Of a DNA stretch of 64,000 nucleotides, positions 24,001-45,784 are shown piece by piece. The notes under the pieces were generated by a model. That model ran no database searches, was not told the DNA's origin, and saw only the letters and a list, made by a program, of their open reading frames with translations. Both the position numbers and the translations under genes were made by a program. Origin of the DNA: Ectocarpus siliculosus (Eukaryota > Sar > Phaeophyceae > Ectocarpales > Ectocarpaceae); contig FN649737.1 in the NCBI GenBank assembly GCA_000310025.1, positions 3,476,442-3,540,441 on the forward strand, read 5' to 3'. The stretch's first letter is position 1. The number at the start of each line of letters is the position of its first letter.

Positions 24001-25961
24001 ATGCCAGCGTGCCCGCGTGGCGCCTCTGTTGTCTACGGGATGGAGGGTTGTTCGTTGTTCTGCTTCATAGAAGTGCGAATCTCGTGCTGGGGGCCCCGTC
24101 GTTGACCTTGTCCATGGAGGGGGGGGGGTGGGACCGTTTTTTATGGGTGGCGTCTTCATTATATTTACAACATGCTTTACCTTCTTTTTGGTGGTTTCCT
24201 GGGTTTGGTTGGTGGTACTGATATCGCGTGGCTAGACAGGCTGGATGGACATCCAATATATGTTGGCTTTTTTCTCGTTCCGCAAAAGGGGCCATTCTTC
24301 AGTGGAACGTGTTTAACGTTGAAGCAGAGAGATTCTAGCGCCGTTCTCCTTGCTGGGAAATACGATGTTACAGTTGCCTTCAGTAGTAGATATCCTCACA
24401 ATGTTTCGGATCCATACCGTTTGTCATTTTCCATGCGGGGTGAACGTTTTTGAAGGCATGAAAAGACAAACGTGGCACCATGTTGCAGTAGTCGTCACGC
24501 AACGTGATCGTGCAACAGTAGCCTCCAACCTTCCACCCCCCCCCCCCCGACAAAAGCTTCCAGCGTCAAGAACGCCTCTCATGCTCTCTGACTCGAATCG
24601 CTGGTGTCATTCGAGGGCGGGACGGACGGGCCCCGCTCAAGATTTCGCCCGAACACAAACCAATAGTTCGCCTGAAAATTGGGAGAAAAAGCAGGGATTC
24701 TGGGGTCCATCATTAAAACCCTTAGAAGGGCACATCGCTTTGCGCCCCCTTGCAAGACACCTTTAGGCAAACCCTGGGAGACACACAAACCATGGCCGAT
24801 GGTGGACTTGGTTTCCAGGCTTGATGACCAATTTTTAGCATTCGGCGGGTTAGGCGCGGAACGTGTTGGCGAACGTGCCGCGAAGCATTGTTGCCGGTGA
24901 TGTCTATGCATGAACACGATGCAGCAAGTTCTCTCGAATAACCACTATGTTCTTTCCACTGTACATTTCGCATACTTGTGGAACTTTGGTCGGGCTCGGT
25001 CATCGCCTTGAACGACACTAATATGTCGATCACGGCTTGCTGCTACTCCCTCCTCGAGAAGCCGAAGTAGCAGCCGCAGCAACCTCAAATCTGTTCGGCC
25101 AGTCACGACAGTGGTACGCCACTGCGCATGGGTTTCCCTCCGAGCAGCTGCAGCTCTCTTCCCTTCTCCCCTCCTTAGCGCACTGCTCCCCTGTAGATGC
25201 GCGCAAGATTCGGTGGGAACGACGGAAAGACACCGGCCGGCTTCGAAATCTCGCCTCTCAACATCAAAAACACGAGGAACAACAAGATTGTAATGCACTA
25301 TCTGATACATGATGAACCGGAACCGCCAACGAATGAATCCGTTTTTCTGCCGCGTGTCTACCACAATGGACAAGCTGCTGAGTGAGTTGCTGTAGTTGGT
25401 GCCTTAGATTTCTCTATTTATTTTTATGCCGCCAGCAGGAGTAGCGCTGGCATCGGGGCTACGCCCTTTAGTGGCCATTGGAAACATGTCCCCGCGTTGT
25501 TTTCGGTAGCGTTAAACAGCAGTGGTAGGTCTGTGCAGCCCTTCACCGAAGACGTTTCTGAACGGTAAACGGATGATGTTTGGAAACGCTCTTACCCGTG
25601 GAGAGAAGCTCGAACATGGGCTGTTTCGAGTAATGCACCATCGCCGTTCTTGACACCTCTTCGCCATTCAGGGTTTTGAGGGTTTGCAAGCGCTACAGCA
25701 CACATCGCACATCAACAAGGCAAGTTCGAAATCGGAAAAGGGAGCGAAGAGACACGTCTCATCGTCAAGCACTTGTTGTCGCGGGTAAGTCGTCTGCCAC
25801 CTGTAATTTACCGTTAATCCGCTGGCGGTGTGTCCAAGTTCCTGGACTATCTCTGACGATGATGGGTAGGGGCGACAGTTACAACGAAGATGAGGTTTCG
25901 AACCAATCTCTTATCGAGGGCTTTCATACGACAGACGACCCCTCTGTGGACACCTTCCCCA
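21065..25961. other. Intergenic between two converging genes; no gene called
   Basis: The AcD gene (plus) and the LRR gene (minus) end towards each other here. The region contains a MITE-like copy (21661), an 18-T run near 22071, five GATGCC units near 22147, further T and C runs and scattered open frames. The most coding-like are 25197-25385 (+, ending at a GTGAGT donor) and 24579-24917 (-). Neither has a partner exon or a known motif, so both are left uncalled. Confidence 0.5.
21661..21800. mobile_element. MITE-like element, copy 2
   Basis: The left end CAAAGCTCGATTGCTCCAC is inverted at the right as GTGGAGCAATCCAGCTTTG. Length is about 140 bp. The ends match the element at 18116 in about 20 of 22 positions. 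A C run separates it from the upstream flank. Confidence 0.58.
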
Positions 25962-28575
25962 TCACAGAGGGGTACAACGTCGTTTGAAGTATAACGATTC
26001 ACGTGATGAGAGGAGACTGTGTTGTGACGGTTGACTGTCCCCCCCCCCCGTGCAGCAACGCAGTGAGGATTGCATTGAGTTCCTGGTTTCGACGTAACTC
26101 TTCTTCCAGGGCAGGGCATCTCCGGGTTGCTGGTATGGCACCGGTATCTCACCGTGGTTATTCTCAGAAGCTCGTCTTGGAGCTCGCCCTCGGCAGGAAA
26201 GTTGTTCCTCAGGTCAAGGCTTGCCAGACGAGGGAACCCCGCTTTCGTAAACATCTCCAGCACATGACGACCGTCTCCGTTTTGAGAACCAAGCTCGTTG
26301 TTGGCAAGGTTGAGGTCGACCAGGGACGTCAGGACGTGGAGGGGGCTCGTCAGGCTGCTGCTAGCAGGGACCCTCGCAACCGTTGCGACCGCTTGCGCGG
26401 CTTCGGGCTCGTCTGCTGCGGAGACGTCCAGTTGCTTTAACCTGGTACCACACATTTATTGGGCCTTCTTCCTTGTCATGAATGTAGAAGTTGCCATTAT
26501 TGACAGAATTTTACACGAAAATTTGAAATCTGCAGAGTTATGGGTTTCGTTCGGTGCCAAAGGCTAAGACACCGAATCCAGCAAAATATTCCCCTCACAT
26601 GACACAAGCTATTCATACATCATCAGGGTAGGTTGGTCAGAGTAGAAACATGGATGGATGGAATGGTAGCCCTTCTGTCTTCTGTAGGGGGTCGAGTGTC
26701 TCCACTGCAGCATATACCCGCACAACAAGAAATCGTTCGACGTGTCGTATACCAGCTTGCTCGGCATGGCGCCTGCGGTCACGCTCCTCCTACAAAACGC
26801 TTCGTGACTCCCTGACGTTTCCAAACGTAAGACTGCCGGCGATAAGGCTACTCATCAACCACCCCCCACCTGTTGCTGTCGAGGCTCAGTCTGCGGAGGG
26901 TCGGTCCGAGCTCATGAGGGAAGCAGCAGTGGGGAAGGGAGCTGATGCTGTTGCGAGCGAGGTCCACGGCCTGCAGCTTCTTTAGGTTGCCCAGGAAGGG
27001 TACCCTCGAAAGGGAGTTTTCTGATGGGCGCCGGAGGACGGATACATAAGGTTAGGAAATCAATATGAGATCAGCGTTCGCTGTGCTAGGGAATACACTT
27101 GGGGGTGTGAAGAAGCGTCATGAGCGAGAAAGGGACACAAAAATGAACAGCCCAACGGAATTTCCAACGTGACTGCTCAAGCATTCCTTTTGTGGGGATG
27201 TGGTTAAGGATTCGCCAAACACGATCGATCTCCGTTAATTTTTCCGTTGGGATTAAAAGAACAAGGGCACTTCTGCGTCTAGATGCGATATCCCGTTCAC
27301 GAATGCTCGACGCGTTCAATACCCCAAGAAACGAGCTTTGGACAAGAGACGTCACGCGTTGCGACGTGCAGGTTCAGTGAGTGAAAAGAGACTTGATTGA
27401 GCAAACAAATTGGGCCTATTGAGTCCAAAAAAGGGTCCACACTTTGGGACTTGAGACCCGCATCGACGGAGAATCTTGGAGCTTCAATAATTGACCTAGG
27501 GATTGATACCAATTATAGTGAATATCATTCGTCGATATCACGTACACGGACAACACCAACGCAGCAACGCACCAACCCAGCATGTTATGTAGAACGATAC
27601 AGGCGCACCATTACCTGCCGCATACAATTCCCTGAGCCACGGAGTCCAAGCCGCAACCTTGTCTAGACCGGCATCACCCAGCTGGGTCCCGCTCACATCG
27701 AGGCTGATCAGCCCGGTCGCCAGCAGCTGTCGAGTGTAAACCGGAGTAGTCGCTAACGGCAAGTTGGTGCCGCGGAGTATTAGTCGCTCGACAGATATAT
27801 TTTCGTCTGCGTGTCCATTCGATGCGTCGTTTCCGCCTCCAGCGGCGTCGCCTTGTGTGTCGCCTGTCGAGGCCTGCCCAGCCGTAGCACATGCCGCCAC
27901 TCTGTCGCCGTGTGTGTTTCGGACCGGGATACCGCTTTCAAACGCGATCGGCCGCCGGCGTGCGTGCCTCCTTCGAAGTAAGTGCTATCACCGAAAAGGG
28001 AGGGTGAACCTGTCTGCACCGACGCTACCGAGGAAGCTACAGCGAGCGGTCGTAGACATACCCGTGTCAAGTTGCCGGGATCAAAAACAAGAACAACATC
28101 AGTCGATCCTACAACCACCGGTAAAATACACTTGAACAAAGGGAATCGTACTCTTCATCCTTTTGTCTTCGGGGGATCATTCAAACCGGAAAGCCTCTGG
28201 CGTTGATGCCTGAAGAACGGCCTGAGCAGCATGTTCCGTCAATGCCAGTTCCCGCCCTCGAGATGCCGCATCTTGCAAACGCTTCCACTCCTCAGGGGGG
28301 CTCAGCTTGCCTCCAAGGGGAGATCTCGAAGTACAATAATTCAAAATGCGCAAACGGAATGCTTAGGAGAGACTCACAAGTCTGGTGGCAATAGCGTTGT
28401 TGGTGGTCTTATCGCGGCAACCTCCCGTGTCTCACAATTCGTCAGAAACTCACCCTTATTATGCCGTGCTTCCAAGCTCCCCCCGACTCGAACGCTACAC
28501 TCCCAGCTCACCTGCTAATACTCTTAGTGCTCGGGATTACTAGCATTCGATCTTAGCTCCAAGTTGGCAGCAAGA

Positions 28576-28610
<35 letters not shown>

Positions 28611-28752
28611 ATGTGTTGCGGTGTGGTTGTCACCTGAACCCCGTCCACGGATCGGCAATTTCTTCCAGCGGCGGACCATCGACAGCGACTTTCGCAACAC
28701 GTTTTATCTTCGAGCGTGACCCTTTTGTCGGCTTTTTCCCTCTACCCGTCAT
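25962..28752 (-). CDS. Leucine-rich-repeat protein, about 375 residues
   Basis: Six minus-strand exons join in phase: 28752-28634, 28300-28187, 27934-27615, 27020-26870, 26441-26153 and about 26096-25962 (TGA at 25964-25962). The N terminus is strongly basic (MTGRGKKPTKGSRSKIKR), followed by a helical stretch (PPEEWKRLQDAASRGRELA) and a Gly/Asn-rich linker. Leucine-rich repeats follow: VERLILRGTNL, LISLDVSGTQLGDAGLDKV, LRELYAAENSLSRVP, LKKLQAVDLARNSIS, LRRLSLDSNRL, LVDLNLANNELG and LASLDLRNN. The repeats are of the short cytoplasmic type, with no signal peptide or membrane helix. Binding partner and function are unknown. The acceptor of the last exon is the least certain junction. Exon 1 starts at the first in-frame ATG. 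The gene is divergent from the wall-enzyme gene at 29259. Confidence 0.83.
28578..28610. repeat. (TGC)11 triplet repeat
   Basis: Eleven perfect units lie 24 bases beyond the donor of exon 1 of the LRR gene, inside its first intron. It reads CAG on the transcribed strand. Confidence 0.95.
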
Positions 28753-29258
28753 CCTTCTGTCCCCAGCTACACTGTCTCGTACCGGCACCAATGCTTGATC
28801 TGTGGACTACTTAGTGTAGGTGAAAAGTTGTAGCCTTGGTTGGTGTTACGTGTACTTTCAAAAAAACAATCATTACGCAGTGCCCCCGTGGAAAAATTCG
28901 AAAAAATGCGGCGAGATGTAGCAGGACGTCACTTGGTATGCCAAAGTCAGGGCAACACACGCCCCACAAGCAGGAGACAAATAGAAGCAGGCGAGTCGTG
29001 CAAGATTCATCCAATCCATTCACTTTGAAAGGCCTGCTAAGTGCAGGGATGCCAGAGAATTGACAGAGAAGACGCACAGTGTTACGTTTCGCGCGGAAAC
29101 GACAGTTTCACTCTCTTTGTCGGCGCTCGAATTTCGTCGGGAGTGGTTACGCCGCATTCCGCGTGCCTTGTTCGCGTCGACCAAATGCCCGCCGAGAGAA
29201 GTCTATGCGAGCATACAGAGCACCGCCGAACCTGCGGCATCATCATCCTGTCTGCACC
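28753..29258. promoter_or_regulatory. Divergent promoter region shared by the LRR gene and the GH128-TOS1-WSC gene
   Basis: The start codons of the two genes lie 506 bp apart on opposite strands, so both promoters and 5' leaders must fit here unless further 5' exons exist. No TATA box or other named element is evident. Possible shared regulation is an inference from spacing only. Confidence 0.45.
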
Positions 29259-30790
29259 ATGCGTCTCAAGCCTAGAAAAAGGGCACGGCTGCTACAACTG
29301 GCCATGGTTGCCGTGTACGCGGCCACGGGCAATGCACGATCCTGCACCACCACTCGTGTGGCAGATATGAACAACTACGGTAAGCTGATGCCATACTTGT
29401 ACATTGACTGAGAACAAGTTGTGTATGCGCATGACCCTGTAGCACCTCATTTTTTTCTTTCAACTCTCTCTCTTTCCCCGCTGCACGATCATGTCAGGGC
29501 CGGGAGTCTCGCTAGCGTCGGTGGAAGTCTCCACCCCCTTCGCCACCGGCTCGTACAACGCAATTGTCGCTTTCGATGCGACACACTGCGTCCAGGTGAA
29601 CCCACAAGCTATTACAGCACGAACACACGGCAGATACTGCAACTTTCCCCCGTATCTAAACCCTCAACCCTGCCTGCTGTTGTTGTTATGGCTGGTCTAA
29701 TCCAGATTGCCTCCATCATAGTTTGTACTCGAGAGTAATTGTAGTCGACAGTTGAGTTGAGAAAAAAAAATGTTCCGAGATTAGCCTACCACTTTTTTGT
29801 AGACTACTGTAGACTCTATAACACTTATTGTGGTCCACAACTTAGCGCCCAAAAAACAAGAAAAAAAAAAACGGAAACTGGACAGCTCGACTTCTCCCAG
29901 AAAAGTTCTCGAAATAGACGCAAGCCCTTTGACGGACGACTGGTTGATTGGGTAAGACGACAATAATGTAGATGTGGGCTGTTTGGCATCGGATTTTTTG
30001 TACTGCCGACTGCTGTACATGAATATACCATAGAAAACCCGCAGGATTCGTATCAAACCGGAATCGAGGACGCAATACCTTACAACCCCTTGTCAAGACA
30101 ATCCTTTCGCTGCGTATTGGGCAGCGATAGATTGTGTGACAACACCCATCACCGCACGGCTGTCACATACTTTTGAAGACATCCAACGAAAGCACTCGAA
30201 ACTTTTCCCCTCAACACTACTCGCCTTCAACCAGCAGCCTGGAGGCGTACCTCCAGCAGGTTGACTGCCGTAAGGTATTTTCATTTATTTAGGTTCGAGC
30301 GGGAACTTGAAATAAGTTCAATTGAAACCGTAAAACGTCATCGAAGCCCCTCATTCGATTTCTCCGGGGAATCTACAGTAGGGAATGCACATATCGTGGA
30401 GACCGGTGAAAGCGTTCATATACGAGCGTCCATGTGTTGTAGAAATATCGGTTCAGTTGAAGCTTCCATGAATTCAACGGAACCCAATTTGGAGCTTCGA
30501 TATAAGGCAGGAGTAGCGCAAGACCATTGCAAAATGCTCTTCTCACAACGCTCTACGCAGATGGGGTAACTCGCCAATTTTCCTCGGCAATTAATTATTA
30601 AAGTTTCCATTCCGTTGTGCTGCCTACACGCCGCAGATGTGCTGCGAGCAAGAAGAATGTGCCCGTGCTGTCTTCAATGAAGGGGAATCTATCTGCTACC
30701 TCAAGGGGTCCGAAGCGTTGGCGAGCTACCACGACGTGCCCGCCACCGGCGTATCAACTTATACCATCGACACAAGAGAAGGCAAGCTCT
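29259..30790 (+). other. Signal peptide and PAN/apple-like domain (residues about 1-124)
   Basis: After the signal peptide come NYGPGVSLASVEVS, AFDATHCVQMCCEQEECARA and VFNEGESICYLKGSEAL, ending GVSTYTIDTREGKLC. The Cys spacing with an ARAVFNEG...CYLK core is that of PAN-type carbohydrate- or protein-binding modules; the match is by motif only. Three exons contribute. The last Cys is completed across the intron from 30790 to 31129. Confidence 0.7.
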
Positions 30791-33700
30791 GTCGCGTAAA
30801 CCGAAGCTGCATGAAAGCGCTTCGATGAGAACACTCAGCGACACCGAATTTTTTCGATTTTGCGCAGGTATTCAGGCTGTCGAAACATCTTGTGGAGGTT
30901 CATCGCACAGATTCACTATTTTCCAAAAGAATGCGAGCTTTGGGTTCGATGCGACCAATGCCTGAAATCGTAGAGATGTCCGTCAGAAGCAGGAGTAGGC
31001 TATGTGGTACACGAGTATTGTGGTTGTTTACATGGGCCGCGACCTTTGTTGCTAGGTCTTCACGGCTAGATATATCACTGTTCGATGTGGATCATGAGGT
31101 TTTTACTTTTCTCCTGCAATAAATAAAGGTAGCTCCGAGCCTGTGGAGCTGGTGCCGACGCAGTGCAGCAGCAAGCGAGGGGTTGCTTTTGGGTTCAAGG
31201 AATCGGGCGACCTGTACACTCTGAAGACGGGAATTTCCTGGTGGTGAGAGTCAAAAGTTCTAAAACACCCGGAAGGAAGTACGTCGTGTGTCTTTCGGGT
31301 GATGAAAATAATTTGCATGACGGTCTCAAGGAAACAAATCATTACGACCCTAGGGAACATGTCCACTTGTGACCAACTGTTGAATATTGCTGACCACCCG
31401 AAAACTCTTGGAACGGCAGCAATCTCTGATTCCTTGGGCTATACTTGCTGTAGTACCTGAATGTTTTATCCACTCGCATTCGGAATCTAGCAATTCCAAA
31501 ATATTAGGACGTGCTCGTCTCATTCTCCTTTTTTGTTTATGTCAGACACGTGGTGATTTAATCCGTTTCCACGCCCTTGAATGAGCACCTGGGATGTGCA
31601 AGTTTGGATAAAGAGATGCTTCACGGAGGGATGACGCCAATCGCAGAAAAAACAAGGTTGTGATTGCTAGCAATACCCAAGCACAGCACGATTCTGATAG
31701 TTGCCTCGGTCCGCTACCCTTTACGACTCACCTGCACAAACATGGATATAAAAAGGAAAACGAAGAAGCACGAGAAATAACACCAACCACAACAAATCAC
31801 TACACACGCGACCATGCCGTGTCAGGTATGATTGGTCCCCGGGGTCCCTCGCGGACGGAATTTTGGAAGCATCGCTGACCCAGGGCTCACTGTACGTTCC
31901 CATGATCTGGGGAGAGGGCGACTTGACAGAGGAGCGCCTGAGAGATCTTGCGTGGGTAGGGGACACCTCTCCTTACTTGCTCGGCTTCAACGAGCCGAAC
32001 TACGGGGAACAGGTGCGTGTCGGGAAGTGGAGGCGCGGATCGGGTTGGGCACAAGGGTATGAAGACGCAAGGACCACCAGGGCCGACATCGCCACAGACC
32101 AAAACAATGACGGCAATGCTAGTATTTCAAGTGTTTTGTTCCATGCACTACCTTCAATCTGTGTATTGCGCCCCCGTTCAGATCCCAGCAAAACCATCTA
32201 TCTCTCGATCTCTCCGCCCTTTGGTGTCTCCGCTGCCGAACGCGTACGTTCAGGCAAATCTCACCCCTCAGGAAGCGGCTGACCTTTGGCCTCAAGTTCG
32301 ACAACAGGCGGACGATTTGGGCATGGAGCTGGTGTCCCCAGCCGTCAACTTCTGCTACGGGAATTGTGTCGAAGAGGTACTGTACAACCCAAAGCCATAC
32401 TCGGTCATCGAATACCGAGAGCCAGCTGGCAGATACAGCAAACGCCAGAAGTTGTTGCGGGAACTGGGTCCGAGAGGAACTGCATACGCATACAAGCAGC
32501 TCGAGTCGAAAAACTAGAAAAATGACCACTCCCGCCCAAAGAGGCTAAGGGAGCGTTGATTCCGATCACAAACCGCGTACGTCGTAGAGGGAAACAGCGA
32601 AAGACAAAACGCAAAAAAATCGGCAGAATCAAAATTTGCAGATCTCGTGCTCGTGTCATTGTAGTTAGAACCAATTTTACTAGGGCCAGAATCGAGAATC
32701 CGACTACCACTTTGAAATAGATCTGCGGCAGGATTTGCCGCAACTTCTGTAGATGTTTCCCCTCTGCCGGAATCAACCAACCCCATTGGCAGGGAAGCGC
32801 GATGTCCCTGCGGTTAGCCCATCTCTTCGCGGTCTACATGTAGCCGCAAGGAAGAGACATTGCGAGACGTTGACTGACGTTTTTTGTGTGTTGGCGCAGG
32901 ACCCCATCACGTGGCTGGATGAGTTCTTCGAGGCGTGCGGTGGTGACGTCGAAGACCGCGACTTCTGCGGCATCACGCACATAGCCATCCATTCTTACAC
33001 ATGCGAGGTGGGTCCTTTTTGTTGTGTTTGTTGACCCGATGGCCTTCTTGACGCCACAATCGATGGCGTATTCCTTGGTTCGCTGACTCCGTTTGTTTGA
33101 AGAGAGGTGGACAACTCTACACGAGAGCAGCTGAAATATATACTGGTACTATTGAATACAATCATTCATGATATGGGGCTAGCTCACAAGTTCCCAACGC
33201 GCGTTAGCTGTCGTTTGTCTCAGATCCTGACACCATGCAAAGAGACCAACAAACTCTATCGGGGGAGAATGTGAACCGGACCCTAGTTTGAACTTCGCGA
33301 CTCTAGACATCCTCTGCCACGTCACCCTTGTCGTTGTTGACCATAACTCGTCGTCAATGAATACGCTCCACACAGGTCAAGTACCTGAACAAGCACATCC
33401 ACATGTACGTCCAGCGGTACGGTTTGCCGATCTGGCTGACCGAGTTCGCCTGCGGTTTCGAGGCAACCGAGCTCGACGCATACGGTCAGGCGAGTTATTG
33501 CCTTCAAGCTGCGCAATACTGTGACCTTCTACAGCGGAGAGTGCTTCCACCGTGCAATCAATTTCTCCGCAACCGGAAGAGGATTTGGTTTCCTTCACAG
33601 GCTATGATGAATCCTCGACCACGCCTCTGGAGCCCGCGAGACGCCAATATCGCTCCTTCGTAGTCGTCGGTGTGTCCTGCGATGCAAAAAGCAATCAAGT

Positions 33701-36700
33701 TTCCAAGCGGGGAGGCATCAGCGCACTTGACAACCCTCTCCCCCTCAACAATGTAAGGAAAACCGTCGACTCACACCAACATCATCCGCAGAGAATGAAC
33801 GGAGCAACTGGTGACCAAATGATATTGTTGCATCTCGGACGCGGCCCGTGCAGAGTAGTGATGGAGGTGACACGTGGAGGGGGGCAAATAGGCGGTGTTG
33901 GCCATCGCGAAGCACGCGTAGTCGACGGTCAAGTGCCTAACGAAGCACTGTCACTTGCATGCGTCCACACTCCCCGAGGAAAGGGTCTACCCACCCACTC
34001 GTTCAACAGCCCATGATATGGTACCCCCCAAAAACCAACTCAGGCGGATTTCCTGGAAAGCGCCTTGACCTACCTAGAGCTGAACCCTCACATCTTCCGC
34101 TACGCATGGTAAGTCACGAGGGGGAACACGCTGGTTAGAAGAGTTGCACTTGCCACGGGTCGCACGGATAAGGGTTTGATTGCAGTTCGTTGGCCATGGC
34201 ACTGGCTCAGCAGGCGTTCTTGGTGCAGCCCCTACTCACCCTTCGCTGGGCACCTACTTGGTTCTGAAACTGTACCACACGTCTTTAGAGGCGCATGCTA
34301 AACACCACGGTAAACGATAGAGAGCTACAGAGCACTTGGCGACTCAGAGGACGACGCCTAATACCAGGAAAAAGATGGCTGGGACGTTAAAGCTCTCCGT
34401 TAATCAGGGGGTACTCGGTATCGAAGCTAGAAGGAGGCAACGCTGGGCTTTGTTGGCCGAGCGGTGTTTGGTACCATGCAAGTTCTCCTGGTGCCGTTGC
34501 CCCCCTCTACACTGTACTTCCGTGGTGTAACTAGCGTTGTTCATTTGGTGCCCATAAATGTTGCGGTTTTCGCGGCATCGAAAATTGTCTTCGCCACCCG
34601 ATTTTGAAGAAACGGGGACATTGTTGGGGAGAACAGGAAAATCTCTGCAGAGACCCCTTCAAGAAGTGACGTGAAAGCTCGTGAGGATCCCCGACACTCC
34701 GAAACGATAGGAATTTCGAGTTTGCGAGTGTCAAGTCAAGTCGGTAGACGTGTTGCCTCGTTAGACGGGAATATATTCCGAGTTTGCACAAGGTTTCCTC
34801 GCTCCTGCAGCGCCAACGGTACAATATTGGAGGCAGTTCCCGGACGGAACTGTGTCAGATGAGCTTACGCTAAGATTACTTCGGTGCCGCCCTCAATACC
34901 TGATCGCTCAATGCTCTCGAAGAAAAGGGCGACAGTAACGCCTTGAAGGATGTGCACACAGTCTCTCTCGACCAATTCCTATTCTTACTTGTTCACAGAC
35001 CACGCAAGATTAGGGGCGGAATCCGCCAACGATGACACGTTCTTGTGCATACCCTCACCCAAACCCTACAACGCGGAAGGTTCACCGCGATATCTGCCGA
35101 CAACGACGGGCTTGACAACTCCATCAACCTGCTTGACGCCGAGACCAAGGAGCTGACGGTCGTCGGAGATGTGAGCTTCGCCGCGCGGTCGCCTGCACCG
35201 TTGTCGTTGTCGTCGTCGTCGTTATTGTTGTTGTTGTTGTTGTTGATGGTGACAATTTTGTCACTGGTTAGTGTTGCCGTTGGGACGTTTCGCGGCCGTC
35301 TTTTATCTGACGACGCCACCACCCCAGCTCAAACACGGTAGCCCTCTATTGTTTCCCTAACCCAACCAACCTCTTGCCCTTGCGCTCTCTGTCTCCATCT
35401 TATATCCCAGGTCTTCGTGTCGAAATATGCCGATCTCCAGCACTGTCTGAAAGAGCAAACGGTGTCGACACAGGCCGCCGACGCCAGCTCTGACAGCTCT
35501 GACAGCTCTGACAGCTCTGACAGCTCTGACAGCCCTGACACCTCTGACAGTGACGACAGTGACGACAGCTATGACAGCTCTGACAGCTCTGGCAGCTCTG
35601 ATAGCTCTGACAGCTCTGGCAGCTCTGACAGCTCTGGCAGCTCTGACAGCTCTGACAGCTCTGGCAGCTCTGACAGCTCTGGCAGCTCTGATAGCTCTGA
35701 TAGCTCTGACAGTAGCAACAGCTCTGAAAGCGACGATAGCTCTGACAGCTCTGACAGCGGCGACAGCGGCGACAGCGCTGATGATGCGCCTTCCGCTACG
35801 CCGGAGGTTGCCACCCCGACGCCCGTGGAGCCGGCTGACTCTGGTTCTGGCGATTCGGATTCCTCCGACGAATACAGTGGAGACTCCGATTCTGATTCTT
35901 ACGAAGACAGTGAGGAGTCTGATTCAGATTCAGATTCAGATTCAGATTCCAGCTCCGACTCCGACTCCATATCGAGTTCCGATTCCGATTCTGAATCCGA
36001 TTCCGCCGAGAGTGGCGATAGCAGCAGCGACGATGAAAACGAACCTGAAGGAAACCCGGGGATTGTTTTGGTCGGTGAGAAAGATCAGGGTATCTGTTTA
36101 TCTCGCTGTACATTGGGTAGCCTTCGTGATTCCCGACGGGGATGCGTTGGCGTAAATGTGGTGTCTGCACGAGCAGATGGGAGAGGCCGATGTCGTAGAC
36201 GACGTACACGACCATGTAGACGACGACGAAGGCTACCCAGGAGGTTAGCCTGCATTCTATCCCGCGAACCCAAACTCCCGTCCCTTCTCGACCGTTCTAG
36301 GCGGAGAGACACGAGCAGACTTGGATGTAGATCCCCTCGCAACCGTGATCACGAACGCGGTCATTGCGAACGTTGGCGGGGCTGGGTACTACGACGATGT
36401 GGTGGACATGATCGACGGGGAGAACATGAACTGCCCATCGTATGACGATGCTTGTGTCAAAGAGGTAAGCGTAACCTTCTGGAACGACACTCTGCAACGG
36501 AAAAACTTTACGCGGAAGGTTGATGCCGCATACGCTTCGCGGGTTGGGGCGAAAATGCCCGATTCGTCCGTCGAGGAGCAACACGAATCGAAAGGTTGCG
36601 GCTCCTGTCGTCCATCTGTGGTGCTGAATGTGCACCGTCGCAACTTCTGCTGTGCGTTCACCCCAAGTTGTTGCGTAAAGCGAGGGCGGGTCCTGTTTTT

Positions 36701-39700
36701 CGAGCTGCAGAATATCGATGCCTGGATCGCCTTCGCAACCATGAGCCACGAGAACCTGTCCTAAAGAAGATGCTGTCCTCGATATCGCCTTTGCACGCAT
36801 GTCAGGAAGTGTGCGTGAACGGCGGCCTGGCTCCTTTCGACGAAGTGTCTGTGTCCTTCCGGGGACCCATGAACCTATACAACATCGCCTGGTTCGAAGG
36901 CACCGCGGACGGAACTCTAGAGCGTACCACCTCCTGGACTCCGGGGTAAGTCGAGGCTGTAGTCGCAGAGGGAACCGTCTATTTGGAAAAGTGTTCCAAG
37001 CAAACGAATGACGGAGGCACGCGTGTATTGTCTGGAGTTGGGCGCTTGGACATAAGTCTCCATAACTCAGTGCACACGGCGAAGCTCGGTTCAGGGAGTT
37101 TGGTCTTGTGAAGTGCAGAGCAAATGTTTCGATTGGGCTCTATCAACAAGCCGGGGGTGCTTCCATGATGTCGGGCCTCCTCTCGAGACGCCCTCCTCGC
37201 CTCGTGTGGCATGGCATCGAGAAACATCTCGCCGTTGCTTCACGCATCCGTAGATAATTGGTAAGAATAAAACGTAGAACTCATCCCGGGCCTACAATAC
37301 GAAGGCGATCATGTCGGAACGCATGTGTTCGACCGAGAATGCCACCTCCCAACTCACTCCAATACAGTGGACATCTACTTCAATGGGAATCCGCCGATGT
37401 CGGTGATCCCAGGGATAATGGCAAGCAGAGCTAGGTACACAAAAGAGAGGAAAGACACACATGAAATCAGCCGCACTCCTAAAGCAATCGTCCATTTGAT
37501 GGCATGAGCATGCCCCTCCCCGCCCACCCGACTAGCTCACGCGACGCCTGTTGACACCTGTTACGGGGACGCACTTACTTGCAGTGAGCTCGGAGACAAC
37601 ATCGCTTTCATGAACAATCGAGGTGGACTGTCTGACTGCTCCGGCGAGTGGAGTATCTGTGGCGGAAACAGCCAGAGCTTCGCGGACGCCACGGTGAGGT
37701 GTTGTCCTCCTTTGATGAGTGTCGCCAAACCCCAAACGATCCTATCATACAAGGTATCGTAGGGGTACGATGTCTATCAGACAGGGCATTTCTGTCAGAC
37801 GGTTAACGGCAGAGTGTGATTGCATGGATGGGTGTGTGTGGGCGCCTTGCAGCAAAACAACGTTATATTACCAACAACTTGTTTTGGAAGAGGTGCATAG
37901 GCTACTCCTTCCGATAGAAGTACGACGCGAAATACTCCGAAAGCACGAGGAGAAAAAAAATGAATCGGCCGTGAGCTTCTTCGCAGTACCGTCTAGCCCC
38001 TTGACAGGCTCAGACATGTTCTTGGCCGGGGGTCCGGGTTTGAGGAGAAACGTCAGCAATACTAGAACGGCTCACGCCTGCGGGCACATATCTACTGTAG
38101 CACTTGACGTCGTCTTACAGTCATCCTTGGAGCGTTGTTTGTGCCGTGAAGTTTCGTTCCACTTATTCTGCGCGCCAGCGTGCACCCGTCGAGAGGTAGT
38201 TAAGCCCACAACCTAGACTCCGAAGGCTATATGAGGGTACCCGCTGAACCATCGGGGCAACCGGCCCAAATTCTAAGGGCAAATCTCTCGGAATCACCCG
38301 CGAGGCCCCAAACACGAAGCTATGCATACAGCAGGATAGTACAGGAGTAATGCCCGTTTTTTTAATGGGGTTTTGTTGGTGAAACGGGCTGTTGTGGTTG
38401 AGTGCAAATCCTTGACCTACTCAAGTTCCCTCGTGTGTGACAGGGGACTTACTGCGCTGCTGGGAGCACGCCCTTCGATGGAAACCTCCCCGACGACAAC
38501 GAGATAAACATCATGACGCAGTGGGAGTGCGCCTCCCAGGAGCAATGCGGGTAAACAATGACACGGACCGATCGTCGGCAACAGAAACGTGGCCATGCGA
38601 TAGGCGCCCAAAGAATCTATGTATGTAGCAATCGCGTTCTCCTCAATTCATTAGGATTGTGGGGAGAATACCCCGCATAATGCCTACAAGGAGAGTGCGA
38701 CGATATTAAGCGGAACATTTGGGAGTCCGTTGGGAGGAGCCAGTAAGGCGCGAGGACCGCGAAAAGGAACATCCATGGAACCCCCTTCTGTGTGGTACTT
38801 TCCATCGAAACCCACGGACATGTGAACGACGAGGGCTTCCAGACACTCATGCTATGGGCCGGAGGTTGATGTTTATCGTCTTGACCACCAAGAGAACAAG
38901 CAAGCCTACCCAAGGCAGTGTTGTAATGGACTGAATGTGGCGTTTACCGTCAGATCAAATGTTTGCAAACCTCGTACTGCCAAGAAGCGTGATATTTTGC
39001 ATGTTCGCGCCTTGTTCCTGTTTCCACCTGCTTTCCCTCGTGTCTTGTTCTTGTATTGAATACGATCTCCGCTCCGGACAAAACAAAACCCGGGGAAAAG
39101 ATTCTACCGTCACACCGGCATGCGTGGTTGGACGGGAGGAAAAGACGGCACCAAAGTCATGATATTCGAGCTGGACATGCCGCACTGTGAGGAGGAGACC
39201 TGCAACTGGAATCGGCCCGCCGTGTGGGCCTTGAACGCCAGGGTACGTCGGGTCGGGTCCGCTGATCGAAGCACGAAAATTGCGTATTGAGACGCCGCAG
39301 TTTTGTCCACGACGTACGTACATGGTACAAGGACGCGACGGCAGTCTTTCTTGTCGCATTCCGCGGTGCAAGTACCCCGAGTTGACGCGGCGCTGTGTCC
39401 AGGGGTGCAATGGCTCATGAAGCATCCCTTGTTTCTATGCGGTGGCGGCACGGTAGAAAGTATCGCTACCCAAGACCACCACCCGGACGCTAGAAACCCA
39501 ATCAGGGCGTTCTCATTCACTTCTTCCTCGCATTTCGGTGAATCTTCTGTCTATTTCAGATTCTGCGAACCGCGCAGTATGGGTGCAACTGCCGTGGCGC
39601 GGGAGGAAATGGTGGCTGCGGAGAGTTCGACATCATAGAGGGTATCGTCGGCAACAAGTACAGTGATATGCTTTTCACGACGGTACGACGGTGTTGCTAA

Positions 39701-42700
39701 TGCCAACAGACGCCTCCTTTCGCTACCTTTCGCTTTAGGTTTCTGGATTCTTTTTGAGAAAAAGCAACCATCGCCGCCCACAGTACCTTGAGGGATTGGC
39801 CTTGGTATCACCTATCTATAGGTGGTTCGCTCGGTCCTTGGTTTTTTGAAGGCATTGCACAGGCTGGGGCATCCAGTTGGGACTCCTATTTACTGGTTGG
39901 AATGTACTCCGAGAATTTGTGAATGTCATGTTTACACCCCGCCAGCAGATATATCGATCGTGGCAACACCGACCGTGTGAGAACATGAAAAATATTTAAT
40001 GAGTGGTTCAACCCGGCATCACTGAGATTTGCCAACCCCAAATCCCTCAGAATATGTATTTTGTGCCCGGTGAGCTTCTGTGGGATACTGCCACAACGTA
40101 CCGCTGCCGTTGATTGCTTGGAACGAATCCCTGGCATCACTAAACCATACCCAGCGTTCGGTCTACTTTTCATAAGCGTTAGTACACCGACATCTACTTC
40201 TTCCCCTATTTTCACAAAGGTTTATGACTTCAAGGGAGCCGGCAGCCCAGGAACTTCCAGATACTTTGAGCGCCCTTCGGTGAGCTTTTGCAGATTCCTA
40301 CTTTGTACCTGAAACTCCTTCACCCGCGTCGTATCTTTTCCTGTTTAACTTTGTCAAAGCTCGTCGTCAGGCGACGTGTATTCCGGGCATTGCTGAGTTT
40401 GTTGAGATTGGCGTGTTGAAACCCTCCATCCTCATAGATGTATGCATAGCCCCCCCCCCCCCCCCCCTTGGGCCTTCCTAAAAGGGGGGGGGGGCCAGGG
40501 GAAAAAAACTCCCGGAAAGAAAAAAAGGGGTCCCCCCCCCCCCCCCCCCCCTATGGACCATTTAGGCCGCGNNNNNNNNNNNNNNNNNNNNNNNNNNNNN
40601 NNNNNNNNNNNNNNNNNNNNNNNNNNNNNNNNNNNNNNNNNNNNNNNNNNNNNNNNNNNNNNNNNNNNNNNATAAACCATCCCCGGGTTGGGTTTTTTTT
40701 TTTAAAAGGGTTTGTACCCCCCCTTTTTTTTTTTCCCCTTTTTTCCAAAAGTTTTTTGCCTCCAGGGGGGCCGCCCCCCCCGGAATTTCCAAATTTTTTG
40801 GGCCCCCCTGGGGGGGTTTTTGAAATTTTCCTTTTTTTCCCAAAAACCCCTTCCCCCGCGTTTTTTTTTTTCCTTTTTAATTTTTTAAAACCTTTTCCCC
40901 GGGGGGGGTTTTTTCCGGCCCTTTGGGGTTTTTTTGAGATTGGGGTTTTAAAACCCCCCCCCCTTAAAAATTTTTGAAAACCCCCCCCCCCCCCCCCCTA
41001 TGGCCTTTTGGAAAGGGGCGGGGGGTCAATGGTCAAATGATTTCGGCAACCAACAAATGGGTACCCCCCCCCCCCCCCCCCCTATGGCCAACTTTAGGAC
41101 CTGGGACATAGGCTTTCGAGAACGTAGATGAAGATTTAGGGAGGTAGACGATGAAGACGATAAGTGCAAATAAATGCGATTGCGGCTCCGAGTGCGAAGA
41201 CCGGGTTCATGTAGTTGCGGAATGTCGGTTGTACAAGAAGGAGAGGGAAGTGTACATGACTGAGCTCGGAAAAGCAGAAGGAAGCCACAGGGAGATGCTT
41301 GAGGCACGGAATAGCCAGGAAAATACGGCAGCTCTGCTGGGGCGTAGGGTGGGTTGATAAGGCGGGAAGTGATATCGATAGGAGAGATAGGCGAGGAAAA
41401 ACGTTTTTGTGGCACCTTGGGCAAAGTAGGAAGGAACGATTGGCATTCGGTGATCGGTGCTCCTGTGGGAACAATGCTCCGTCCTCTCGAGGACGCGTGG
41501 TCAATGGTCTAACCGCTAAGGCATGCAAAACAAAGTGCGCTCCCCCTCCCAAACACTCATCAGGTCACACTCGCCCGCGCCAACCTGCCGCCCAGTCCAT
41601 ATTTCTCGTAAACCTGACCCCCCCCCTCTCAATCGAAACGCCGGAGTAAGCCCGCACTTCTCGACCATTCGGTCGAGTCCAGAAATAAGTACAACAATGC
41701 ACGGCAACAACAACAGCATTGTACAAGGAGATCACCGTTATCGTAGCAAAATACTCACCTGACTTCCTAAACAACAGAGGAGGTCGTACCCCCTCTTAAC
41801 TACCTACCAGACAACCCCGACGGCGCATGTCCCACCCACGTCCGAATTTTGCAGGAGAAAACAACGTACGCTGCCATCTTCCGGGGAAACAGCGGCGACA
41901 GTGAGTCTTACCTCCAAGTGGCGCAGCTCGACGGTTGGGACTTCACGGCGGAGTCGCTGACGGCTTCAGAATTGGACAAGATGAAAGGCTCCGAAGAGGA
42001 GACGCACCCGATTTATTCCGTGGACTCGCGGTCCACTAGTGCGGTGAGTGGCCGTCACTGCCCAGTGATAAAAAAAAAAAGACCACAGTGTTGATACGTT
42101 GCCCTACGACAGACACACGCGATTCGCATCAAGAAACGGAGCATTCACTGATGTCCCGTCGTCTACATCTGCTAGGCACCATCCATGCCGTGACCTATTG
42201 GGATCCGCATGTCCTCTTGAGATAGTATTGCTCCCAGGAACAACAGATGGATGTCTCGAACCGCTTGGTTACTCCTGCAGGGCTGTGATTCCAGCCCAGA
42301 CCCCGCGGTTGGTGAATACATCGAGGAGATGCTGTCGCTGGCAGAGGGGTACGAATACATAGGGTGCTTCCACGACAAGTCACCGATGGACGAAAGGGAT
42401 ATGGCGCTAAGTTCGAAGCGGGAGTTCGCTCAGAACAAGCCTAGCATGTGCGCGGCCCGATGTGCCAAGGAGGACGGCGCCACCTTTTTCGGCCTTCAAA
42501 ACGGTGGCTTGTGAGTGGCTCATGGGATGAGAAGGTTTTGAGGCAACATGGGTGGACTTGAGCGGGCGCTGATTGCAGCCATTTGCGTCATTCATCTGCA
42601 GCAGGAATGAGGGGGTTATAGTGGTCACTACGGGCCACACGCTCACGGCGCGCCCCTCTCCCACGACTTTTCCCTTCGTCCCCCCTTTTCAACACCCACA

Positions 42701-45700
42701 GCCCCCAAGAAGATTGATATATGGGCTTGTGGCAACCGTAAGCGGAGCTCCATCCTGCGTCTTCTTTTCGCGCTGGCACCGCTTTCATAGTTGTCCTGTG
42801 CTCGAAATCACACCCTAAAGTTCTTCCGTTACCCTAGCCCTTGGATCCAAACTCTAGTTGAGTCCGGAACCCTGAACTTGATCCGGCACCGCCATTGCAC
42901 CGAAAAAGTTTATTCTGACACGCCGTCCCATATTCTCATCGGTTTGATGACGCACAATGAGCAACGCAGCTGTACTGGCGACCTGGGCTGTTTGTCTCAC
43001 TCGCCAACGCAGATCGCGTACACAAGCTCTACAGTAACTGAACTTGTATGCTTCCGTCCCAATAGATGCTGGTGTGGCGGGATGGGTGACACAGGCCCCG
43101 GGTCGCACGGTGAGGCGGACACATGTGACAAGCCCTGCCCGGGCGAAAATGGCGTCGCGTGCGGCGGCAAGAAGTGAGTCTATGCCTACTGTAGTTAGAG
43201 TATAGTGTTCTGATACATTCACTCTCCCATGGCGTTGCGCGGCTGAAGTATGACACCGGCCCATCGCCCGTCCGTGTGGTCTCATTGCGCGTGATTGTAT
43301 GGGTTGTTTCCGTGTGTGTTCGCCTCGTACTGCGGCGGGAAGCATCGCAAACGTTGATGGTAGTGGATACCACGCTGGAAACTGATCTTTGGGCCAAATT
43401 CCATACGTGAGCCGAGAGACCATTCTGACAATGGCCTACGTACTCGTGTCCATAGTTAAAATGGTTAATGAAACATATTAGATTTTCAACGGCCCTAGCG
43501 TAGAAGCAAGACCTATTCACTACTTCGAAAATCAAGTTGCGCCTTGGGGGTATCTGAGTTGTGGAGGCGCCACTGGATTCAACACACATCTTGGAACTAG
43601 CCCCGTTAAGTAGCACATGCCGTGTTAACAGTTGGGAACATGGCCTGTACGATGTACGTGCGAAAGGTTATGGTTATGAGGAATACTGACACGTCGAGAA
43701 AGAAACTTGGCCCTTGTGCGTGGGAAATAACTCGAACGTGAAATCCCCGACGGGGAAATACTAGCAAGTAGAGTAGTCTACACTGTAAATGGATTGAACG
43801 GTCAGGGAGCATCAGTCTCTATCTCTGCAAAGGGAAATTTCAGTAAAGAACGTGCGTTTCACCTGTCGGCAGGGTAAGCAGCGTATACGTCATCCCTGTG
43901 GAACACACGTACGTCGGCTGCTTCGAAGACAAGAAAGACGATCGGGATCTACTCCTCGTCCCCAAGGTATGAAGTACCCTGGCGTTGGTGAACTCCTGGT
44001 GCCGCAGTTACTGAAAAATATTTCTGGACGCAATTGTCTCTTTGCAGGCTCCAACTGTAGGTGACTTCTTGGAGATTCATAACCAGATTCCGGTAGGCAT
44101 GCATGATTGGGCAGTGTGGCCCCTCTCTGGAGTTCATTTGCGTCTGGAAGCAAGCTGCAGACCCAAACGCCAAGAATGCCGTAGATTGTACTGAGTACCT
44201 CGATTGATTGGAGAATACGCTCCGTTGACGTATCTCACACGCGAGCAAGGCGGCACCACTGGTGAAGGTCACTTGAAGCGGTCAGAGGCACCCAACCAAG
44301 GAATGTTATGCTTCTTCGTCGCAATTGAAGCGTGCACGGTCATTGTTTTATAGGGACCTGGTGGCACACTCGTGCAGTAAATCCTCGCTGTCGCGCAGTG
44401 GACTGTCAAAGCCTCGTACAGTACCCCCCGGAAGAACACACAACTCTCGAGGGGGGATGTGTTCAAAATTATCGTTTTTGACGGGCAAAATGTAAAGAAC
44501 ATGACATAACCACGCCTCCTCTGAAAATGTACTACCACTTCTCGAAACGCCCATGACCGGCGGTACCGAACACCAAGAAGCAACGACACCAAGATCAACA
44601 TCAACATCAACATCAAATAACAATCACCATCATCAACAACAACGCCCTTTGTCCGCACCACCACCAACAGGTGGTGTCTTCCTACCTCACGCCGGCGGCC
44701 TGCGCGGCCTACTGCTCCTCCGTCGAGGGGGCCACGTACATCGGGGTACAGTCCGGCCGCAAGTGTTTCTGCGGGGACTCGTTCGGAAAGCACGGACAGT
44801 CGACCCTGTGCAGCGAGCCCTGCTACGGCGACGAAGACCAGGTTTGCGGAGCGCATAACGTCAACAGCGTGTACACTCTTCTGCCTGAGGATGAGGTCGA
44901 TCGAACCCCGTTGAACGCGGGCATCCAAGACCAGCAGGCAGTGTGCGGGGGGAAGCGCTGCGGCTGCTTCCTGAACGAGAGCCTGGGAGACTCCCTGTTG
45001 TCTGGCGGCAACGATATGGATAGGTGTGCATGGCCACGCACCGATAGAAGATGTACACCCTTCGTCCGCCTTTTTTTGAAGTCATTGAGTCTTCTTCCTC
45101 GGCTGCTTTGCCCGTACCGGGTGCATGCTGCCCAGTATAGCATGAGATACTGTATATATTTTGCATATGGTGAACGCATCGCTCCAAGCTGTTTGCGAGT
45201 GTTTCCGCACACTTGGCTTGGCGTTCGGCGGTGGTCCTCCAGCTGAGTATGGCTTTGGAAGGCAAGGTTTGTCTGCAGATACGGCCCAAATCTCCTTCTG
45301 CCGTCGCTCGTGCTAGCGACATATTTCAAAATCTACCCGCGCGTTTGAACTTTTTGTTCTTGGCGATATGGACCACGAAAGGCGTGCAAGCTTACGTCTC
45401 CCCCAGATGTCAGCACCACTGCTCCTGTACCTCTACAACCTCACACCGTGGCCCCACTCCCGCCTGCACTTTGATTTTCCTTTGACTCTGCCGCCGCAAA
45501 ACATGTTTTCACGTTTCTCCCCAAAACACTCGCCACAAAACAGCGAGGCACTGTCCCGAACATCCTGCAAGGAAGCTTGCGAGAAAGGTGGCTTCCCGTT
45601 CTACGGCCTTGAGTGGTCAATCATCTGCTTCTGCGGCGGAAATAAGACCGCCAAGGCCAAGTTCATCGAGGGAATCGAGGCGTACCGGCTGGCCGACGAT

Positions 45701-45784
45701 ACCGGGGCGTGTGACATGCCTTGCCCGGGGAATGGGGAGGACACCTGCGGCGGGTACGGTGCGGTAGAAATTTGGGAGGTCTGA
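29259..45784 (+). CDS. Secreted fusion protein: PAN-like, GH128 glycosidase, Ser/Asp repeat, TOS1-like, three WSC
   Basis: Exons: 29259-29379, 29498-29595, 30637-30790, 31129-31243, 31826-32012, 32254-32376, 32900-33007, 33376-33489, 34044-34108, 35080-35170, 35411-36074, 36301-36464, 36806-36945, 37536-37693, 38444-38550, 39101-39242, 39560-39682, 40220-40279, 41855-42043, 42281-42510, 43066-43173, 43873-43966, 44671-45023, 45544-45784. Together they give about 1,316 residues. All junctions close in frame except 36945 to 37536, which needs one more short exon. The donor after 30790 is weak (GTCGCG), and 33489 uses a GC donor. The intron 40280-41854 holds a 100-N gap. The start ATG opens a signal peptide (basic KPRKRAR, then LLQLAMVAVYAA). 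There is no C-terminal membrane helix or GPI signal, so the protein should be secreted to the wall. Beta-glucan remodelling is inferred from the domain set. The domains are listed separately. Confidence 0.9.
31129..35170 (+). other. GH128 (Asl1-like) glycosidase catalytic domain (residues about 125-392)
   Basis: Seven exons encode in order SKRGVAFGFKESGDLYTLK, GISWWYDWSPG, LYVPMIWGEGD, SPYLLGFNEPNYGEQ, ANLTPQEAADLWPQVRQQA, GMELVSPAVNFC, WLDEFFEACG, GITHIAIHSYTC, LPIWLTEFACGF, LNPHIFRYAWF and INLLDAETKELTVVG. This is the whole family fold. The two family catalytic acids are both present: the acid/base Glu in GFNEPN (codon near 31992) and the nucleophile Glu in WLTEF (codon near 33442). The family includes fungal endo-beta-1,3-glucanases, and substrate here is inferred. 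The intron after 33489 has a GC-AG donor (CAG|gcgagt). Confidence 0.9.
35490..36030 (+). repeat. Ser/Asp repeat linker coded by AGCTCTGAC-type repeats
   Basis: Within the 664-bp exon 35411-36074, about 180 residues are nearly all Ser and Asp (SDSSDSSDSSGSSDSSGS pattern, later ESDSDSDSDSDSSSDSDS), with a short Pro/Thr spacer (TPEVATPTPVEPADSG). The DNA is a degenerate 9-12 bp repeat of AGC-TCT-GAC/GGC. Very acidic Ser/Asp tracts occur in bacterial Sdr surface proteins and in mineral- or calcium-binding matrix proteins. It is likely an extended, possibly phosphorylated or calcium-binding spacer. Other open frames over it on both strands are shadows. Confidence 0.92.
36301..36945 (+). other. TOS1-like N-terminal domain (residues about 614-715)
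   Basis: Two exons read GAGYYDDVVDMIDGENMNC...CVKE and then VCVNGGLAPFDEVSVSFRGP followed by MNLYNIAWFEG. Fungal TOS1/YJL171C proteins have the same order: G-x-Y-x-x-V-x-x-M, a Cys, then G-x-(V/L)-(A/S)-P-(F/L)-(D/E)-E-x-(V/L)-S-(V/L)-x-F-R-G-P. The following exon junction is unresolved. Confidence 0.85.
40440..41090. other. Assembly gap (40572-40671, 100 N) with poor-quality flanks
   Basis: Both flanks are almost only stretched homopolymers, including C runs of 10-18 bases and T and G runs of 8-12. The string of C followed by TATGG(A/C)C occurs three times (near 40550, 41000 and 41083). This looks like low-quality read ends and not genomic sequence. It lies in an intron, so the gene model is unaffected. 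Confidence 0.85.
41100..41560 (+). mobile_element. LINE-type retrotransposon 3' end with RT C-terminal zinc knuckle
   Basis: The frame at 41151-41357 reads NKCDCGSECEDRVHVVAECR followed by LYKKEREVYMTELGK. This C-x-C-G...H-x4-C pattern is the Cys/His motif at the C terminus of non-LTR reverse transcriptases, but no RT core is present. Another frame then covers the tail to a hairpin core CGTCCTCTCGAGGACG at about 41481. The copy is truncated on its 5' side at or near the poor-quality region. It is inside an intron of the wall-enzyme gene in sense orientation. A second tail copy is at 18-130. Confidence 0.7.
42350..43173 (+). other. WSC domain 1
   Basis: Exons 42281-42510 and 43066-43173 give YEYIGCFHDKSPMDERDMAL, MCAARCAKEDGATFFGLQ, GGLCWCGGMGD and CDKPCPGENGVACGGKK. 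The eight-Cys pattern and the FFGLQ...CWCG core are typical. WSC domains of yeast sensors and fungal enzymes bind wall glucan or related polysaccharides. The intron splits the domain just before CWCG. Confidence 0.92.
43873..44890 (+). other. WSC domain 2
   Basis: Exons 43873-43966 and 44671 onward give TYVGCFEDKKDDRDLLL, LTPAACAAYCSSVEGATYIG, VQSGRKCFCGDSFGK and LCSEPCYGDEDQVCGAHNVN. It has the full WSC Cys pattern. Its intron falls earlier than in domain 1, after LLLVPK. Confidence 0.92.
44930..45781 (+). other. WSC domain 3
   Basis: It starts CGGKRCGCFLNESLGDSLLS at the end of exon 44671-45023 and continues in 45544-45784 as LSRTSCKEACEKGGFPFYGL, IICFCGGNKTAKAKF and CDMPCPGNGEDTCGGYGAVE, ending five residues before the stop. 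The first segment lacks the usual aromatic-Val before GC(F/Y), so this is the most diverged of the three. Confidence 0.88.

Follow-up and report, generated by a model that had tools for sequence, protein, structure and literature searches.

The window, a stretch of 64,000 nucleotides of the Ectocarpus siliculosus genome (GenBank assembly GCA_000310025.1, contig FN649737.1; G000:C12:3476442-3540441 in our searches, which covered 189 Mb of genome), carries on its + strand a gene that we modelled from reading frame, intron phase and splice scores as 24 exons spanning positions 29259-45784. The model encodes 1,296 amino acids and its sole stop codon is the terminal one. Scans of the DNA in its three forward frames placed GH128, Tos1_N, Tos1_C and WSC in this order on the + strand, and the order in the spliced protein is signal peptide, PAN-like head, complete GH128 domain, Ser/Asp linker, Tos1_N, Tos1_C and three WSC domains. 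A first-pass annotation of this DNA had proposed a continuous exon series from signal peptide to stop, encoding a PAN-like head, a complete GH128 with both catalytic Glu residues, both halves of TOS1 and three WSC domains. The exon series was reproduced from its first codon to its last, and a Pfam search of the spliced protein recovered every one of these domains at its proposed place, the PAN-like head close to its cut-off.

The 23 introns comprise 21 of the GT-AG type and two of the GC-AG type (after exons 3 and 8), and their phases are compatible throughout. The weakest acceptors are those of exon 16 (score of -8.0), exon 10 (-4.2), exon 4 (-2.7) and exon 24 (-2.5), and the GC donors of exons 3 and 8 are also weak. 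For the acceptors of exons 16, 10 and 4 and for the exon 3 donor, a homologous junction is present at a second, related locus on the same contig (see below). The intron after exon 8 is missing there, and the spliced window sequence aligns with an uninterrupted exon; the exon 24 acceptor is without a homologous junction at that locus. No Pfam family exceeded its cut-off in six frames of the flanks (24.3-29.2 and 45.8-50.7 kb), and no RNA families or tRNAs were found in the window. A leucine-rich repeat (LRR_4) match of 20.3 bits, which is below the cut-off, lies upstream of the gene on the minus strand (24301-29202), and dense tandem repeats of the CATGAGCTCT type are located 3' of it at 49431-50263. 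Intron 18 contains a run of 100 N at 40572-40671, around which the translations are proline-rich and of low complexity.

Exon 1 (29259-29379, + strand) contains the start codon and a signal peptide (MRLKPRKRARLLQLAMVAVYAATGNA...), predicted by hydropathy alone, and ends in a phase 1 donor (ACG/GTAAGC). The second locus has a homologous signal-peptide exon, which likewise ends in ..NYG and in phase 1. A simple hydropathy scan found no strong membrane stretch in the spliced protein. Exons 2 and 3 (29498-29595 and 30637-30781; feature 29498-30781, + strand) encode the PAN/apple-like head. The PAN_1 profile matched the whole spliced protein with an E-value of 1.2e-4 (22.3 bits versus a cut-off of 21.4) and the head alone with 2.6e-6 (27.6 bits), whereas the second copy, at 20.7 bits, is just under the cut-off. 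The GC-AG intron after exon 3 (AAG/GCAAGC) has a GT donor at the second locus in an equal position and phase.

The GH128 domain (31203-35416, + strand) is encoded by exons 4-11 (31129-31243, 31826-32012, 32254-32376, 32900-33007, 33376-33489, 34044-34108, 35080-35170 and the start of 35411-36074). The GH128/Glyco_hydro_cc profile matched residues 147-391 with an E-value of 5.9e-52 over profile positions 10-237 of 237, the score being 177 bits versus a curated cut-off of 21. A search against sequences of solved structures gave 14 distinct GH128 sequences at E-values up to 1, the best of them at 2.4e-54, and the full domain is common to the algal protein and to GH128 glycosidases of known structure (6uax, 8j3x, 6uaw, 6uav), whose chains in these structures are 230-444 residues long and represent GH128 constructs. 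By alignment with solved chains, the two catalytic residues are E216 (GFNEPN; codon at 31992-31994, + strand) and E322 (WLTEFA; codon at 33442-33444, + strand), which by homology would be the acid/base and the nucleophile, respectively. All three solved chains for which an alignment was listed carry the second catalytic Glu, and two of them carry the first. The third chain has a Gln at the first position but differs little elsewhere from a chain with Glu (8j3x/8j3y: NEPN versus NQPN), as expected of a catalytic mutant.

GH128 is followed by a Ser/Asp-rich linker (residues 403-608; 35450-36067, + strand), which lies within exon 11 and has 90 Ser and 52 Asp among its 206 residues. A 9-bp tandem repeat of about 30 copies with an 83% match occupies 35485-35758 of this coding sequence, and its length could differ among individuals. 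The Ser/Asp linker is absent from the second locus, where the linker is short. The GH128-to-TOS1 join is a phase 1 junction (36074/36301), and the phase is also 1 at the second locus. In the window, the GH128 frame contains no stop ahead of exon 12, the first exon of TOS1, and the model is without Met from residue 310 to residue 646, Tos1_N starting at residue 633.

Tos1_N (36301-36895, + strand; exons 12 and 13 at 36301-36464 and 36806-36945) was matched with an E-value of 8.9e-13 (48.9 bits versus a cut-off of 27; profile positions 6-61 of 63). Tos1_C (37589-41977, + strand; exons 14-19 at 37585-37693, 38444-38550, 39101-39242, 39560-39682, 40220-40279 and 41855-42043) was matched over residues 714-933 with an E-value of 7.9e-47 (160.2 bits versus a cut-off of 27; profile positions 15-226 of 228). 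The two halves follow one another at near-full profile length as in fungal and yeast TOS1 and YJL171C (PF10290 and PF10287). An ExDxxE motif of the laminarinase type, E853-F-D855-I-I-E858, is encoded at 39623-39640 (+ strand) and is intact in both algal copies (EFDIIE in the window, EFDIVE in the second copy). A sequence search for a solved relative of TOS1 gave one match with an E-value of 0.62, which was taken as chance. A permuted GH16-like fold has reportedly been claimed for TOS1 in the title of a paper. Single-sequence AlphaFold2 modelling of a bacterial TOS1 (locus L017, described below) gave a mean pLDDT of 35. According to parts of the published work, ExDxxE is named as the laminarinase site of TOS1 in oomycetes (PMC7219551), the Phytophthora TOS1-like protein PPTG_16550 is assigned to GH16 and yeast TOS1 is described by its glucanase similarity and mutant phenotype (PMC4176579). 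Fungal TOS1 consists of a Gly-rich and a TOS1 part in the portion of the source used (PMC5872309), whereas the algal TOS1 is joined to GH128 and WSC.

The C-terminal part of the protein contains three WSC domains, all on the + strand: WSC 1 (42347-43877, 8 Cys; exons 20-22 at 42281-42510, 43066-43173 and the start of 43873-43966), which on its own has an E-value of 1.3e-14; WSC 2 (43910-44857, 8 Cys; exons 22 and 23 at 43873-43966 and 44671-45023); and WSC 3 (44956-45784, 9 Cys; exon 23 to 45023 and exon 24 at 45544-45784, with the stop codon at 45782-45784), whose exon 24 part has an E-value of 4.4e-10. Over the three stretches the E-value is 4e-34 and the total score is 117.1 bits versus a cut-off of 27.8. 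The TOS1-to-WSC join is formed by a donor at 42043 (GCG/GTGAGT, score of 5.0) and an acceptor at 42281 (2.8) in phase 0, and it rests on one locus. The genome contains at least 102 WSC matches. Brown-algal C5-epimerases also carry WSC domains. A motif that we take to be that of mannuronan C5-epimerase had 8 exact matches in the genome versus 0 for the reversed control, 2 of the 8 within 4 kb of WSC matches, and one translated match resembles such an epimerase, in keeping with a brown-algal origin of the DNA. WSC is likewise attached to other domains in further brown-algal proteins such as PR-1, but the catalytic or functional partners differ, as far as the sections consulted describe them (PMC12879055).

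The second locus (G000:C12:1203668-1213400, minus strand; L013-L015) lies 2.3 Mb from the window. Its model has 16 exons and encodes 758 amino acids with a signal peptide, a PAN-like head, GH128 (8.8e-57, 192.8 bits), Tos1_N (4.9e-17) and Tos1_C (3.1e-44), without WSC. The roughly 9.7 kb that follow it matched no Pfam family on the strand of the gene, in a scan that could miss WSC in very short exons. In the exon-by-exon search of the whole genome, which gives lower bounds, two GH128 loci were found and these are the same two as the Tos1_C loci. At the second locus, 13 of the 15 introns agree with the window in column and phase, and the 14th, of equal phase, is displaced by a single column; this agreement is partly circular because the exon models of both loci were guided by their mutual homology. 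The 15th intron, at the GH128-to-TOS1 join, is inside the unalignable linker, and three additional introns interrupt the window gene in the part common to both models. Between the copies, dN and dS were 0.39 and 4.8 for GH128 and 0.34 and 1.58 for TOS1, which are rough values as dS is near saturation (for the head, dS was not computable); both catalytic domains appear to be under selection against amino-acid change. At the second locus, the TOS1 exon is preceded by an in-frame ATG and an accompanying hydrophobic stretch (hydropathy of 3.07 versus 2.15 for the N-terminal signal peptide), so that TOS1 could start separately at that locus. In addition, a stop in its GH128 frame falls right at the proposed donor.

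TOS1 relatives were also sought in bacteria and viruses. Two scans of viral contigs gave none, and two scans of bacterial genomes gave 0 and then 5 loci. Three weak loci (L018-L020, E-value of 1e-4) were set aside; the match in L019 overlaps a 2,086-residue ORF in another frame and was taken as chance. The metagenome-assembled genomes with loci L017 (Myxococcales) and L016 (Proteobacteria) contain a full TOS1 (1.8e-47 and 5.6e-47) followed by a GH64 ORF on the same strand. Among 377 genomes of the phylum of L017, TOS1 was matched in 5, of which 3 were over the cut-off; the 5 are the L017 genome itself and four with a divergent TOS1. All four of the latter have a GH128 gene on the strand of TOS1, at a distance of 0.3-0.7 kb between matched pieces and with 42-43% identity to the GH128 of the window, and a thaumatin ORF adjoins GH128 in 3 of the 3 of these loci whose neighbouring ORFs were scanned.

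A survey of the bacterial order to which one of these four genomes belongs gave TOS1 matches in 22 of 183 genomes (7 over the cut-off) and GH128 in 50. TOS1 and GH128 lie within 4 kb of each other in 10 of the 22 genomes with a TOS1 match, on the same strand in 8, where about 0.03 would be expected (0.032 by a simple density estimate, related genomes not being independent); 3 of the 10 adjacent pairs were already among the four divergent-TOS1 genomes. The TOS1 neighbours of GH128 pass the family cut-off in 6 of the 10 pairs and are below it in 4, and those of the 12 order loci described below that are under the TOS1 cut-off show a strong match to the divergent L027 TOS1. E/Q-x-N-x-x-E, not ExDxxE, is carried by 9 of the 10 neighbours. 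Regions were opened in 15 of the 22 genomes (12 + 3), that is, in all except G426, G428, G446, G455, G481, G482 and G483. In the 12 opened order loci, tblastn detected GH64 in two (L035, L037) and thaumatin in one (L042); L035 has the motif ELDVVE and the other 11 have E/Q-x-N-x-x-E. The middle Asp is replaced by Asn in all 15 divergent TOS1 loci (L027-L030, L036-L046). L035 contains TOS1 (GCGELDVVE), GH64 and a GH128 cut by the contig end, on one strand and within 4.7 kb. L035, L037 and L017 each have a TOS1-like gene and GH64 in one block, and L035 and L037 also have GH128 in it; judged by gene content, these blocks look like a glucan-degradation cluster. None of the 6 bacterial loci searched contained a match to the PAN head. 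The bacterial neighbourhoods of TOS1-like, GH128, GH64 and thaumatin genes contain the TOS1 and GH128 modules of the algal protein as separate genes, and the side-by-side placement of these relatives suggests that GH128 and TOS1 work together.

The closest described architecture is that of oomycete OPEL, in which, in the portions of the source used, a signal peptide, a thaumatin-like/GH64 module, a Gly-rich part and TOS1 with ExDxxE form one chain, and for which its authors' BLAST searches gave no homologue beyond oomycetes (PMC7219551). Phytophthora parasitica OPEL and Pythium insidiosum I06 resemble the algal protein as secreted stramenopile proteins in which a glucan-type module is N-terminal to a Gly-rich (Tos1_N) part and TOS1; however, their N-terminal module is thaumatin-like/GH64 instead of GH128, and neither PAN nor WSC is named for OPEL in those portions. 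In the spliced algal protein, neither thaumatin nor GH64 was matched at E-values up to 1, and GH128 occupies that place. In the parts of these reports at hand, neither laminarin nor Avicel showed a clear zone with recombinant I06 (PMC7219551), and P. parasitica OPEL had no laminarin or beta-1,3-glucan activity, its elicitor activity being abolished by mutation of the motif (PMC4915311). For laminarin, GH16 and GH81 are the families given in a 2024 study of the matrix polysaccharides of brown algae, which lists GH16, GH47, GH81 and GH114 as the most populated families and does not mention GH128 in its main text (PMC11468063). The first-pass annotation knew of no fusion of all three, and among the open-access papers listed in our searches we saw none that describes a chain with GH128 and TOS1, with or without WSC. 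Its description of an undescribed system, however, was too strong, since OPEL joins TOS1 to a glucan-type module (PMC7219551, in the portions used) and the bacterial genes adjoin one another. TOS1, which it described as a fungal wall type, is not restricted to fungi, the family being also oomycete and bacterial. On its domains, the algal protein appears to be a variant of a known theme, TOS1 coupled to another glucan module.

These findings agree with the earlier proposal of a secreted multi-module glucan enzyme, which the gene model, the domains and the second locus support. We consider it probable that the product is one secreted beta-1,3-glucan enzyme with two catalytic domains, held on the wall by WSC. 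This reading builds on the gene model, the domains, the catalytic residues, the second copy of the core and the apparent selection against amino-acid change; secretion, substrate and domain cooperation are inferred. One gene would yield one secreted brown-algal protein, in which GH128 would cut beta-1,3-glucan chains internally by means of E216 and E322. TOS1, GH16-like by its intact ExDxxE centre, would act on the same glucan or on its product, either hydrolytically or as a transglycosylase. Anchoring to wall polysaccharide would be the task of the PAN-like head and of the three WSC domains, the Ser/Asp linker would allow the catalytic halves to reach separate sites, and the shorter copy, which lacks WSC, would represent the same enzyme with weaker anchoring. 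Counting against this reading are the presence of WSC at one locus only, the possible separate start of TOS1 at the second locus, the laminarin results for OPEL and I06 and, among the 10 bacterial TOS1 neighbours of GH128, the changed motif in 9 and the scores below the cut-off in 4.

The chain might be divided in either of two places. Were the three WSC domains a separate gene downstream of a GH128-TOS1 gene, the abundance of WSC in the genome and the second locus, which stops after TOS1 with no Pfam family found on its strand in the 9.7 kb scanned downstream, would fit. However, the join has a strong donor and an acceptor of matching phase 0, and the in-frame ATG tested ahead of WSC 1 has a weak hydrophobic stretch (0.67 versus 2.05 at the gene start), and we regard this division as quite unlikely. 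It is very improbable that GH128 and TOS1 belong to separate neighbouring genes that were duplicated as a pair. Their bacterial relatives are indeed separate genes, and the alternative ATG with its hydrophobic stretch and the GH128-frame stop at the second locus would suit such an arrangement, but in the window no such stop precedes TOS1, the modelled exons lack a Met from residue 310 to residue 646 at which TOS1 could begin (an unmodelled first exon could supply one), and a phase 1 donor and acceptor are available at both loci.

The chain may also be single while its TOS1 half, or all of it, does not act on beta-1,3-glucan, being a structural or recognition protein of the wall or an enzyme of another polymer. 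The laminarin results for OPEL and I06 point in this direction, as does the account of yeast TOS1, for which glucanase similarity and mutant phenotype alone are given in the part of the source used (PMC4176579). Nevertheless, the catalytic residues are intact in both copies, conservation is strong around both centres and the effect of OPEL depended on its motif (PMC4915311, in the part used), and we regard this alternative as unlikely.

A single two-domain glucan enzyme also allows a broader idea, which is tentative and rather doubtful. Stramenopiles might have acquired an ancestral bacterial set of TOS1, GH128 and GH64/thaumatin genes, TOS1 being fused to GH128 in brown algae and to thaumatin in oomycetes. 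TOS1 would then be regularly paired with beta-1,3-glucan enzymes, and the algal TOS1 would re-join chains cut by GH128, one chain both loosening and resealing the wall. Were TOS1 a transferase, this would also agree with the lack of laminarin hydrolysis by OPEL and by I06.

The chemistry of TOS1, a fungal and oomycete wall protein, is unsettled, as two OPEL-type proteins with the motif had no laminarin activity in the parts of the reports used (PMC4915311, PMC7219551). The natural fusion to GH128 and the bacterial gene neighbourhood point to the substrate class of TOS1 and provide a pair that is directly testable. For the brown alga itself, the protein would add a GH128 route for glucan.
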